Assembly (NCBI GenBank): GCA_016285455.1
Contig: JAEEQS010000001.1
Location: 1-64,000, forward strand
Source: Bacteroidales bacterium
GTDB taxonomy: Bacteria > Bacteroidota > Bacteroidia > Bacteroidales > UBA932
Length of the DNA: 64,000 bases
Direction of reading: 5' to 3'
The notes beneath the pieces are model-generated. The model worked only from the letters and a program-made list of their open reading frames with translations, searched no databases and had not been told where the DNA came from. The first letter of the stretch is position 1. The number at the start of each line of letters is the position of its first letter. Below are positions 232 through 10,663 of the stretch, one piece after another. Position numbers and translations under genes: made by a program.

Positions 232-1128
232 TTATAATGGATACTTCCTTCTAATTCTAGGACGTGGGAGCTGAATAACAACTTTGGGCTTACACAAGCA
301 TTTAGTAGCGACAGCATTGAATGAGCAATTATACTTACTGAAAGTTACGTCCATTAGCATATCCGCCGTTATTCCTCTTTTTTCCAATTCCAATAAGTCA
401 TTCTTTTCTAGTTTATTAAATAATACAAGCCCTAGAGCTGAGCTGTATTCAATATAAAACACATTACTTTGTTTTCCACAACTTCTACAAGAAGCAATAT
501 CCTCCACTAGATGTCGATCTAACATATTTGATGTGAATCCAGAACATTTTTTATTCAAACAAAGAGAAACAACATCCGGTTTGTGGAGCTTTTCTACAAG
601 TCTAGGCAAATCTTCTGGGTGGACGTTATATTGAACTAGAACAATTCCATTTTCCCTATAAAATGCCAACGTATTTTCCTCTGGAGAATGAGTATACACG
701 ACTTCTAATGCGACTCGGACCTTTCCAGAATCATCTAACAAAGCAATATCTGGACGACAGACCTTCATATCATACTCTACTGATATTGTTTTAGTACAAT
801 ACAAAAGATTACCAGAATATGGCGTATTGCAGACGCGACACCTCCAATCAACAACAAATGCCTTTTTCTCATTTAAGAAACTGTTTAATAATGTTGCCGC
901 CTCTTTCTTGAAGACTGCGTGTAAGACAGATTCCGGATCACAGTTATGTCCTCCTCCCTTATGTGCAAAATGAGGACAACGAGAACCAGGTCCTGACTTG
1001 CCACTATTCTTATAAATCAGTTCCTCTCCACATTCTGGACAGAAATACTTATTTCCCTTAACGGCATCTTTTGCTATGACAAGATGTCCTTTCTCATCAT
1101 ATGCGATTTTTATTAAAACATCTTTCAT
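232..1128 (-). CDS. CoiA-like zinc-ribbon plus nuclease-fold protein
   Basis: CPECGEEL...CPHFAHKGGGHNC N-terminus, then RPDIALL...ALEVVYTH nuclease-like motif. Confidence 0.65.
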   Translation of the reverse strand: MKDVLIKIAYDEKGHLVIAKDAVKGNKYFCPECGEELIYKNSGKSGPGSRCPHFAHKGGGHNCDPESVLHAVFKKEAATLLNSFLNEKKAFVVDWRCRVCNTPYSGNLLYCTKTISVEYDMKVCRPDIALLDDSGKVRVALEVVYTHSPEENTLAFYRENGIVLVQYNVHPEDLPRLVEKLHKPDVVSLCLNKKCSGFTSNMLDRHLVEDIASCRSCGKQSNVFYIEYSSALGLVLFNKLEKNDLLELEKRGITADMLMDVTFSKYNCSFNAVATKCLCKPKVVIQLPRPRIRRKYPL

Positions 1129-1270: not shown

Positions 1271-1510
1271 ATGAGAGTCGCAATTAGATGTATTTTTTAC
1301 AAGGCGGTAACACCTTCTTGTGATATAGTTGATATGGATGACGAGACATGGAGTTTATTTTTACGATCTGACAAATACAAGCGTATAGAAATAGCTCTTC
1401 ATATACTTCATAGAGAGAATCTAGAAGGAATGGTCCGCGAAATTGCGTGGATCCCATTAAACGACCAAACCAAACTTCAAGAGATGCCTAATCCGTTTGA
1501 AAAGGGATAA
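1271..1510 (+). CDS. small hypothetical protein (79 aa)
   Basis: ORF divergent from the CoiA-like gene. Confidence 0.5.
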   Translation: MRVAIRCIFYKAVTPSCDIVDMDDETWSLFLRSDKYKRIEIALHILHRENLEGMVREIAWIPLNDQTKLQEMPNPFEKG

Positions 1511-1591: not shown

Positions 1592-2731
1592 TTATAAAGC
1601 TCCTAACAGCTCTTGAAGTTTTGCTTTTAATGTATCGACGTCTTTAGGTTTTGTTATTGATTTAAGATATGAAATCCTTTGCAACTTGTTCTTTTTGAAC
1701 AAATAAATGCCCAATGTGTCTATCAAGGCCACAGCTTTGTGACACTCTTTTCCTGATATTTCCAAATCTTCTTCTAGACAAATGCTGCTAGGACGATAGT
1801 ATTTCTTCAACTGAGCAGATAGATGGTCTTCTATCTCTTGATTTAGTTTAACCTCCACAGGCAGATATTTACCACCTAGTGCTATTACATTATCAATTTT
1901 GCCGGTTTTTCCACTCATATCACCAGCTACACAATAACATTCGCTGTACAGTTTCCCCGATGTTTTTAGTTTCGCTAAAAGATAATCAACATAATAACGT
2001 CTAAACTGATCCTCAGAGATGAACTTGAATTCGTGCATCTTTGTAACTGTAAGCCAATTCTTCCCATCAATCTTCTTTAAAGGGATCGGAGAAGAAATGC
2101 AGTTCTTGAAAAACGAGGATAGCCTTGGATTCTTTTTTAGGATTAAATCCCTCACTTTGTTGTAAGACTCTCCTAGCACAGATGTTATAGCCCCTTGCTG
2201 CTGAAAAGAAACAAGTTTCTTAAACTCAGAAAGCGGAATAGGGGTGTCTAGAACCCTAACATCTTCATATGTACAATAAACATTTGATTTCCAATGATTC
2301 TCCGCTCCCACTTCATTCTTTTCTCGCCAAGCAGATGATGTCACCTTCCCAACTGCAAATATTTTCCCTCCAAAAGCACGATAAGCTATCTCGGCCTCAC
2401 TTAGAGCATGAAGTAAATTGTAGTAAAACATGCGATCCGCCTCTGTATGCTTCTTGTCTCTTAGAAGTCCAGAGCCGATACTCATCAATTCTCGCTTTAG
2501 CTTATTTAATATGCTCTTGCTAGATACAGATTGCATAAAGAAACAAATATCGCCTGCTTTAGCCCAGCGAGGAGCCGTATACTCAATAGGAATATCGTTT
2601 ACATAAAAGGAGGATAACATATACAGCCTCTCGACATTTCCTGGAGTAAACCCAACTTCAACGTATTCATGCAGGTCTTCCAAAGATTTTACAGGAGATA
2701 GATTCAGAATATAGGATTGGATGTATTTCAT
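1592..2731 (-). CDS. putative EVE/PUA-like plus PD-(D/E)XK nuclease-like protein
   Basis: GDICFF...KIFAVGKV...VRVLDTPIPLSEFKKL N-terminal pattern; C-terminal GKIDNVIALGGKYLPVEVK fits D-Xn-ExK. Confidence 0.5.
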   Translation of the reverse strand: MKYIQSYILNLSPVKSLEDLHEYVEVGFTPGNVERLYMLSSFYVNDIPIEYTAPRWAKAGDICFFMQSVSSKSILNKLKRELMSIGSGLLRDKKHTEADRMFYYNLLHALSEAEIAYRAFGGKIFAVGKVTSSAWREKNEVGAENHWKSNVYCTYEDVRVLDTPIPLSEFKKLVSFQQQGAITSVLGESYNKVRDLILKKNPRLSSFFKNCISSPIPLKKIDGKNWLTVTKMHEFKFISEDQFRRYYVDYLLAKLKTSGKLYSECYCVAGDMSGKTGKIDNVIALGGKYLPVEVKLNQEIEDHLSAQLKKYYRPSSICLEEDLEISGKECHKAVALIDTLGIYLFKKNKLQRISYLKSITKPKDVDTLKAKLQELLGAL

Positions 2732-8637: not shown

Positions 8638-9792
8638 TTATCTGTAAAGAGACTGAAGACTTTCAACGGCTTTTTGCATTATTGCCTTGGCATTTGGATT
8701 TTCTTCCAGGGCATATGCTGCTTCAAGATCTTTCTTTGCCGTAAGAAGTTCTGTTGAAAGTATGTATGATGCGGCGGCTCCCCTGACTTCAAAGTCTTTG
8801 TCGTAGAGAAGGCACGTTGCCCAGGTTTTCATGCTCCAGGAAGGATGGGTCATCATCCAGTTGATGCCTTCCAGTTTCTCTTCCTTTGTTCCGTAAACAA
8901 ATGTGCGGTAGAGAGATCCTTCTTTCTGAAGGTCTTCCTCGTCCATAATAACTTCCCTGTCCAGGAAAGGAGCCTTGTACTCAACAGGCAAGGCAAGGTC
9001 TTCTTTGCCTGCGCACCAGAAAAGTATTCTCGGAATCATCCAGGAGAAAGAAGCGCTTCCTTCCGGATGGCCTATGGATGTGAACACTCTTCCCTTGCCG
9101 TAGTTGTTTGCCAGGAAGAATGGCTTGCCTGGACTTATTCCGCTCTGGAACTCTGCTCCTGTGTGCACATCGCTGAGCATAAGGGCAATAGGGGCATACT
9201 CTGTTGCGGGAGATTCCGCCAGAGCTGCAGAATCTGCGGGAACGAGCATTGGGCCGTTTTCAAAGAGTATATGAAGGGTGTCTGTGTCTTTGAGTTCAGG
9301 AAACAGTTTTTTGCCTTCTTCTGTCAGGGCTATGGAGCAAAGCCCCTGGCCCCTGGAGGAATGGTCAAGGTCAAAGACCTGGGCTCCGTTCATCCCAAAG
9401 CAGGCATAGTCCGGAGTGTGGCTTAGGGCATAGGCTCCGGCACAGATGCAGAGTATTCCGCCGCCGTTCTCAGCCCATTTCTTTATTATGTCTATGTTAG
9501 TGTTTCCGAGGCTGAACGTGTGCATGCTTCCGCCTCCGCCAGGAATTATCAGCACATCCAGGCTGTCCAGAACACCCCAGGCTATGTTTGCGCTGGTTAT
9601 GTATTTTATGCTTATGCGGGAATCCAGCTGCGCTGCCGCAAAGGCTTCAGTCATATTGGTATGGCCGCTTCCCAGGCCGTCCAGCATTCCAACTTTCAAG
9701 AGAGGCTGAACTGTCTTTTCACGGTTGCAGGAAATTCCAATAAGTATTCCGCACAGAATCGCGGAAATCAGGATTAGAGTTCTTTTATTCAT
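8638..9792 (-). CDS. BPL_N / glutamine-amidotransferase-like lipoprotein
   Basis: LDVLIIPGGGGSMHTFSLG...GGGILCICAGAYALS. Confidence 0.7.
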   Translation of the reverse strand: MNKRTLILISAILCGILIGISCNREKTVQPLLKVGMLDGLGSGHTNMTEAFAAAQLDSRISIKYITSANIAWGVLDSLDVLIIPGGGGSMHTFSLGNTNIDIIKKWAENGGGILCICAGAYALSHTPDYACFGMNGAQVFDLDHSSRGQGLCSIALTEEGKKLFPELKDTDTLHILFENGPMLVPADSAALAESPATEYAPIALMLSDVHTGAEFQSGISPGKPFFLANNYGKGRVFTSIGHPEGSASFSWMIPRILFWCAGKEDLALPVEYKAPFLDREVIMDEEDLQKEGSLYRTFVYGTKEEKLEGINWMMTHPSWSMKTWATCLLYDKDFEVRGAAASYILSTELLTAKKDLEAAYALEENPNAKAIMQKAVESLQSLYR

Positions 9793-9865
9793 ATCGCTGA
9801 AGATTATATTTCAAAAATACAACTTTTTGTAAATTTGTCAGACAAACATTCAAGTTTTGATTCTT

Positions 9866-10663
9866 ATGAAAAGGTATTTAGTTCTTTTTACGGCAGCTTT
9901 GGCAATTTGCCTGGCTGGCTGCTCCGGCAAGAAAACTCAGACAGATGTAAAAACAGTCCCAGACACTCTGGCGGTTGTGGATGAAACCTCTGATTCTGGA
10001 TTCGGGGATCCTGCTGTAAAGGATGTTGTAAAAAAGCTTCCCGCAAATATGATCAGAGACGGCTTTGTGGTTATTTCCGAGGCCGTTCCGGATGTGATTC
10101 TGGAAATAAGATATTATTCAACCTACAATTTTGTAGGCTCAAGGATAGACGGCTATGAGCAGCCTGTTGCCCTTATGACAAAGGAGGCGGCAAAGGCTTT
10201 GAAGGCGGTCAGCGATGACGTGAAGGCCCAGGGCTACCGTCTGAAGATATATGACGCTTACCGTCCTGCAAGGGCAGTGGCTCATTTCTGCCGCTGGGCG
10301 AAAGATGCCGACACTTCAATGAAACGTGCCTTCTATCCAAATCTGGAAAAGGCAAACCTTTTCAAGCAGGACTACATAGCCACCAAATCCGGCCACAGCA
10401 GGGGAAGCACCGTGGACCTTACTCTCTTTGATATGAGGACCGGAAAGGAAGTGGATATGGGCGGCACCTTTGATATGCTAGACCCTTCTGCCCATCCGGA
10501 CTACAAGGGCGTAACTCCTGAGCAGTATGCCAACCGCCAGCTTCTCAGGCAGGCTATGATGCGCCACGGCTTCAAGCCGCTGTACTCAGAGTGGTGGCAT
10601 TTCACCCTACGCGATGAGCCGTACCCGAACACTTACTTCGATTTCCCTGTAACCTTCAAATAG
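9866..10663 (+). CDS. D-Ala-D-Ala dipeptidase (M15D, VanX-like)
   Basis: RLKIYDAYRPARAV...GHSRGSTVDLTL...EWWHFTL. Confidence 0.9.
   Translation: MKRYLVLFTAALAICLAGCSGKKTQTDVKTVPDTLAVVDETSDSGFGDPAVKDVVKKLPANMIRDGFVVISEAVPDVILEIRYYSTYNFVGSRIDGYEQPVALMTKEAAKALKAVSDDVKAQGYRLKIYDAYRPARAVAHFCRWAKDADTSMKRAFYPNLEKANLFKQDYIATKSGHSRGSTVDLTLFDMRTGKEVDMGGTFDMLDPSAHPDYKGVTPEQYANRQLLRQAMMRHGFKPLYSEWWHFTLRDEPYPNTYFDFPVTFK

Follow-up and report, generated by a model that had tools for sequence, protein, structure and literature searches.

Detection of the gene

What does the protein encoded at positions 1592-2731 (minus strand) of the window do, and does it act alone? The window, the whole stretch of 64,000 nucleotides analysed here, carries at this site an intact open reading frame of 379 amino acids with an ATG start. 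A preliminary description, made from the sequence alone, had read the product as a candidate modification-dependent nuclease with an EVE/PUA-like N-terminus joined to a PD-(D/E)XK C-terminus, and had considered this gene, alone or in a small operon with a neighboring CoiA-like gene, a plausible anti-phage system.

In single-sequence searches the protein had no match in PHROGs and none to the Pfam EVE model PF01878, and its matches in Pfam and NCBIfam were at chance level only. One of 19 members of the family described below reached E 0.011 with PF01878, which is below the cut-off. The PADLOC Cas4 model matched weakly over residues 275-358 (E 6e-5). Full-length relatives were not found by this kind of search in the PDB, in plasmids, in phages or in 39 to 396 genomes at the levels of genus, family, order and phylum. 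The weak C-terminal matches were to proteins that we take to be DUF4143-like ATPases; they have the PD-(D/E)XK motif alone in common with the window protein and were rejected as relatives, and the remaining weak matches from the genome searches were judged to be chance. A probe with an N-terminal consensus had no match in plasmids and supports no claim. The EVE likeness is missed by single-sequence search because the similarity is too weak, and it was revealed by the profile-profile comparison given below.

Family and distribution

To find relatives, the core GGKIFAxG[KR]V was turned into a degenerate DNA pattern, which was run over viral contigs and one genome each of about 85,000 species. 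The relatives recovered in this way rest on their own alignments. Together with the window copy the family has 24 members. Of the 23 relatives, 21 are cellular and come from gut-type genomes, mostly of Clostridia (Ruminococcus, Oscillibacter and others) but also of Solobacterium, Olsenella and Christensenella, and two are on phage contigs. One phage-borne relative (L045/L050) is 31% identical to the window protein (pairwise E 8e-50), and the second (L135) was obtained in a scan with the family alignment. A profile built from 20 members recognized all 24. Two other candidates (L200 and L201) were discarded as unrelated. Member L058 (93-1264) consists of two overlapping frames, owing to a frameshift or an assembly error. 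None of the Pfam, NCBIfam, PHROGs and PADLOC libraries appears to recognize the family.

Between close pairs of relatives pN/pS was 0.20-0.28, which indicates that the protein is maintained by purifying selection. The window copy is at most 38% identical to the other members, and of the 39 genomes examined in the genus its own is the only carrier. When 198 genomes of the order were searched with a profile, no further copy was obtained apart from one fragment with E 0.009, and no full-length homolog was present in the other genomes sampled from the family, the order and the phylum. In the tree the window copy stood on a long branch beside phage member L135; as this position may reflect long-branch attraction, no origin is claimed for the window copy. 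The gene is a mobile, patchily distributed cargo.

Elsewhere the gene is solitary; some loci lie near phage integrase or transposase genes, and most relatives are outside obvious defence islands. In one phage the copy sits between the genes for the major head and the major tail protein, in a structural cluster that looks intact. An Olsenella metagenome-assembled genome (L100, 4471-7233) has a frame of 920 amino acids in which the EVE/PD-(D/E)XK part is combined with an unrecognized middle and a NADAR domain (PADLOC candidate defence family PDC-M42C), and the same locus contains an HNH restriction-enzyme-like gene. The tail genes of phage L050 include a toxin-antitoxin pair of the YoeB/RelB type (9646-10183), and the gene adjoining the phage-borne member in L135 (7072-7761) matched phrog_940 (nuclease) and phrog_8680 (unknown). 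A methyltransferase gene was found neither in the islet around the window copy nor among the scanned neighbor proteins, which were part of the relatives' neighbors.

Predicted structure of the reader domain

AlphaFold2 run on the window sequence with 18 relatives (19 aligned sequences) gave a model with a pLDDT of 87.5 and a pTM of 0.83; run on the window sequence alone it reached a pLDDT of 34.1, which was unusable. In the confident model the N-terminal domain (residues 1-215; 2087-2731, minus strand) has an EVE/YTH/PUA-like fold, a member of the PUA superfamily. The top match of Foldseek in the PDB was VcaM4I (6yex), an EVE-HNH modification-dependent endonuclease (E 2.8e-3, prob 0.96), followed by MJECL36, many YTH m6A readers including YTHDF2, PH1033 and Cas4. 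Most of the top 13 PDB matches had a prob of 0.94-1.00 with E above 0.001. Among viral models, PD-(D/E)XK nucleases and one EVE protein were matched. Since no match in the PDB or among the viral models passed E 0.001 and the full-length superpositions were poor (TM of query 0.2), sequence profiles were taken as a second line of evidence.

Ordinary EVE proteins for this comparison were drawn from Bacteroidota genomes, a phylum name that was itself deduced. When the whole N-terminal domain was compared with them by hhalign, only the stretch KxGDIVFFMHS aligned with KxGDxVxFYHS (65.8%). Without the two-helix insertion (residues 71-117) the EVE match extended over 123 columns at 94.7% probability and E 5.7e-8, and 60 column-shuffled versions reached at most 4.2%; the removal was decided after the model had been inspected, and the shuffles control composition, not that decision. 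From this match, set against the shuffles, the N-terminal domain is taken to be an EVE domain with a helical insertion. When profiles are compared, the domain is homologous to EVE proteins, and the order of strands and helices agrees. The insertion forms a helical hairpin of about 50 residues (71-120; 2372-2521, minus strand; helices 71-91 and 97-120 in the model) that is missing from the ordinary EVE proteins in the alignment.

Residues G121, G122, I124, A126, G128, H146, P164, T183 and N201 are identical in all 20 aligned members. Judged by conservation, N10, W56 and H146 are candidates for residues of the base pocket. The loop at H146-W147 had a pLDDT below 50 in the model, and no residue of the window protein was mapped with confidence onto the base pocket of VcaM4I.

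Predicted nuclease domain

The C-terminal domain (residues 227-379; 1595-2053, minus strand) was recognized from the PADLOC match, from Foldseek matches to Cas4 4r5q and to phage PD-(D/E)XK proteins, and from its motifs. Conserved in all 17 members that reach the region are D280 (codon at 1892-1894), predicted to bind metal, E293 and K295 of the (D/E)xK motif E293-V-K295 (1847-1855), and Q307 and Y311 of the motif Q307-x-x-x-Y311 (1799-1813), all on the minus strand; further upstream, all 20 aligned members share E240, R244 and Y247. D, ExK and QxxxY form the signature of RecB/Cas4-type nucleases. Two strands of the model (276-285 and 288-294) carry D280 and the E293-x-K295 region and belong to the nuclease core. 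When the domain was aligned locally with 4r5q, a Cas4 structure, D and ExK fell in the same register. Comparison of the domain with Bacteroidota Cas4 by hhalign reached 0.6%, which is not significant, with the register correct. By predicted fold and by motifs the domain is a RecB/Cas4-like PD-(D/E)XK nuclease.

Both halves of the architecture proposed in the preliminary description were thus recovered. Structure prediction, the point at which that proposal could have failed, gave an EVE/PUA fold as well as a PD-(D/E)XK core; the motifs that it had quoted, D-Xn-ExK among them, are all present, and their conservation among the aligned members is beyond chance. A domain call made from the sequence alone was therefore correct where the family libraries fail.

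Islet between the tRNA-Ser genes and the CoiA-like neighbor

The gene lies on a low-GC islet of 2.75 kb (151-2901) between two tRNA-Ser genes, which were identified by ARAGORN on the plus strand: tRNA-Ser(TGA) at the left border (65-150) and tRNA-Ser(CGA) at the right border (2902-2989). The two tRNA genes are separated by 2,751 bp in the window but by only 33 bp in sister species G185 (L032, 5940-6146), and the genes of the right flank are shared by both. The GC content of the islet is 35-40%, compared with 43-48% in the right flank. The tandem tRNA-Ser site of G185 is an empty site, and the islet was inserted there in the window. A search for direct repeats as attachment sites of the islet found only the natural similarity of the tRNAs. 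The tandem tRNA-Ser genes are an insertion spot; in G098 (L033, 6304-6391) only the TGA gene is retained there.

The islet also carries the CoiA-like gene (232-1128, minus strand; Pfam DUF7828 6e-7, CoiA_N 1.5e-5). Between it and the EVE-nuclease gene lie 463 bp with an opposite-strand open reading frame of 79 amino acids (1271-1510, plus strand), the reality of which is uncertain and which had no match in the family libraries and no homolog in the genus. The CoiA-like gene occurs at other sites, without the EVE-nuclease gene, in four species of the genus (L039, 5644-6579; L040, 5259-6158; L041, 5122-6021; L042, 5774-6517), and the CoiA-like gene is absent from all loci of the EVE-nuclease relatives. 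The suggested small operon accordingly finds no support, and the CoiA-like gene was rejected as an evident partner. As the two genes occur apart, the islet is regarded not as an operon but as a spot for cargo, where at least two genes are independent of each other; the CoiA-like gene is possibly a separate defence gene.

Some details of this neighborhood were recorded in passing. The CoiA-like protein has a zinc-ribbon N-terminus and a predicted nuclease motif D..ExV/ExN, at the end of which a lysine would be expected. In three species its gene is directly 3' of a gene for a protein of 214-223 amino acids, possibly an HTH regulator, which had no Pfam match and a weak match to PADLOC PDC-M69A. 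In L041 the CoiA-like gene is near an HmaC/DUF499 ATPase. At 1170-1245 the window has two palindromes that resemble operators (TTGAC(A)-spacer-TGTCAA), in the interval that separates the CoiA-like gene from the divergent 79-amino-acid frame.

Proposed function

The front half of the protein resembles readers of modified bases and the back half resembles a DNA-cutting enzyme; most likely, therefore, the gene is a one-gene defence against modified phage DNA. A reader domain is fused to a nuclease domain as in type IV enzymes, and the product is probably a modification-dependent (type IV) restriction endonuclease that stands alone and needs no NTP. When phage DNA enters the cell, the EVE-like domain would recognize a modified base in it and flip this base out, and this recognition would lead the RecB/Cas4-type domain, probably as a dimer, to cleave the DNA nearby with the help of a divalent metal held by D280 and E293. 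Host DNA would be without the mark, so that a methyltransferase partner would not be needed. Because YTH domains are among the Foldseek matches, m6A has to be considered as the base as well as modified cytosine.

A more tentative and rather doubtful extension of this reading gives the hairpin a role of its own. It may reshape the pocket for a hypermodified base other than 5mC or 5hmC, in a distinct clade that phages use against modified competitors; as part of the same doubtful extension, that clade would range over gut Firmicutes, Bacteroidota and their phages.

The YTH domains, which are m6A readers and make up a large share of the top PDB matches, could also point to RNA. The protein would then be an EVE/YTH-like RNA reader fused to a PD-(D/E)XK nuclease, and during infection this nuclease would cleave modified tRNA, tmRNA or phage mRNA in an abortive or toxin-like manner. 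RNA targeting has been argued for YTH-containing CoCoNuT systems (PMC11090510), and predictions place some EVE domains in toxin-antitoxin settings (PMC7641849). Cutting of RNA is unlikely, however: the motifs D/ExK/QxxxY in the nuclease of the window protein are RecB/Cas4 motifs of the DNA type, and the relatives' loci showed neither an RNase domain nor an antitoxin gene as a recurrent neighbor.

The two phage-borne copies, one of them among head and tail genes, would suit a gene of phages or mobile elements that serves mainly to exclude competitor phages or to process DNA and was later stranded in bacterial chromosomes. An exclusion role has been proposed for the viral modification-dependent enzyme HHPV4I (PMC10101028). 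Such a main role is nevertheless quite improbable: 22 of the 24 members, the window copy included, are on cellular contigs, several without phage genes nearby, and no invasion of a conserved gene in the manner of homing endonucleases was seen. The kind of enzyme would in any case remain unchanged. RecB/Cas4-like nucleases do work in repair and recombination (PMC5704561), but a cellular nuclease that senses damaged or modified bases outside defence is very improbable for a gene that is patchy, mobile and missing from every other genome sampled in the genus, a poor fit to housekeeping.

Comparison with known enzymes

Bacteria use modification-dependent enzymes as a weapon against phages whose DNA is hidden behind modified bases; in the laboratory the same enzymes are tools for mapping such bases. 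The type IV enzyme proposed here belongs to a family of 24, unnamed in the four libraries, that occurs in gut bacteria and phages and has an unusual insertion in its reader. Being coherent and having clear catalytic residues besides this insertion, the family is directly testable.

The general design had already been predicted. Bell, Wolf and Koonin described EVE-PD(D/E)XK proteins as putative type IV restriction endonucleases in 2020 (PMC7641849), and the window protein resembles them in its two-domain design and in the predicted modification-dependent cutting. It differs in the helical insertion of about 50 residues in the EVE fold and in being missed by the Pfam EVE model. It therefore appears to belong to a new family of that kind. 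For VcaM4I, the mechanism of the EVE domain together with cutting by HNH has been established (PMC7897488; PDB 6yex). The two proteins share an N-terminal EVE reader, a C-terminal nuclease and a solitary gene; VcaM4I has no methyltransferase partner, and for the window family none was found in the islet or among the neighbor proteins scanned. The nuclease of VcaM4I is of the HNH type and that of the window protein is PD-(D/E)XK, and identity in structural alignments was 10-12%.

The MspJI and PvuRts1I families likewise join a PUA-superfamily reader to a PD-(D/E)XK nuclease and are NTP-independent, although their reader is SRA and not EVE (PMC7897488, PMC12707154). MspJI has an Mrr-like PD-QxK site according to the papers that describe its architecture (PMC7897488, PMC12707154).

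With Cas4 and the RecB-family nucleases the window protein shares D, ExK and QxxxY in identical order and register. Cas4 is defined by four cysteines that bind an Fe-S cluster (PMC5704561), and identity with Cas4 was rejected since this four-cysteine cluster is missing from the window protein, in which C265 and C267 in the core strand 258-269 are the only conserved cysteines. Neither cas1 nor cas2 is present within the 2.75-kb islet. The segment E264-C265-x-C267 (about 1931-1942, minus strand) in strand 258-269 is nearly invariant among the members, with E in 18/18, C265 in 17/18 and C267 in 19/19.
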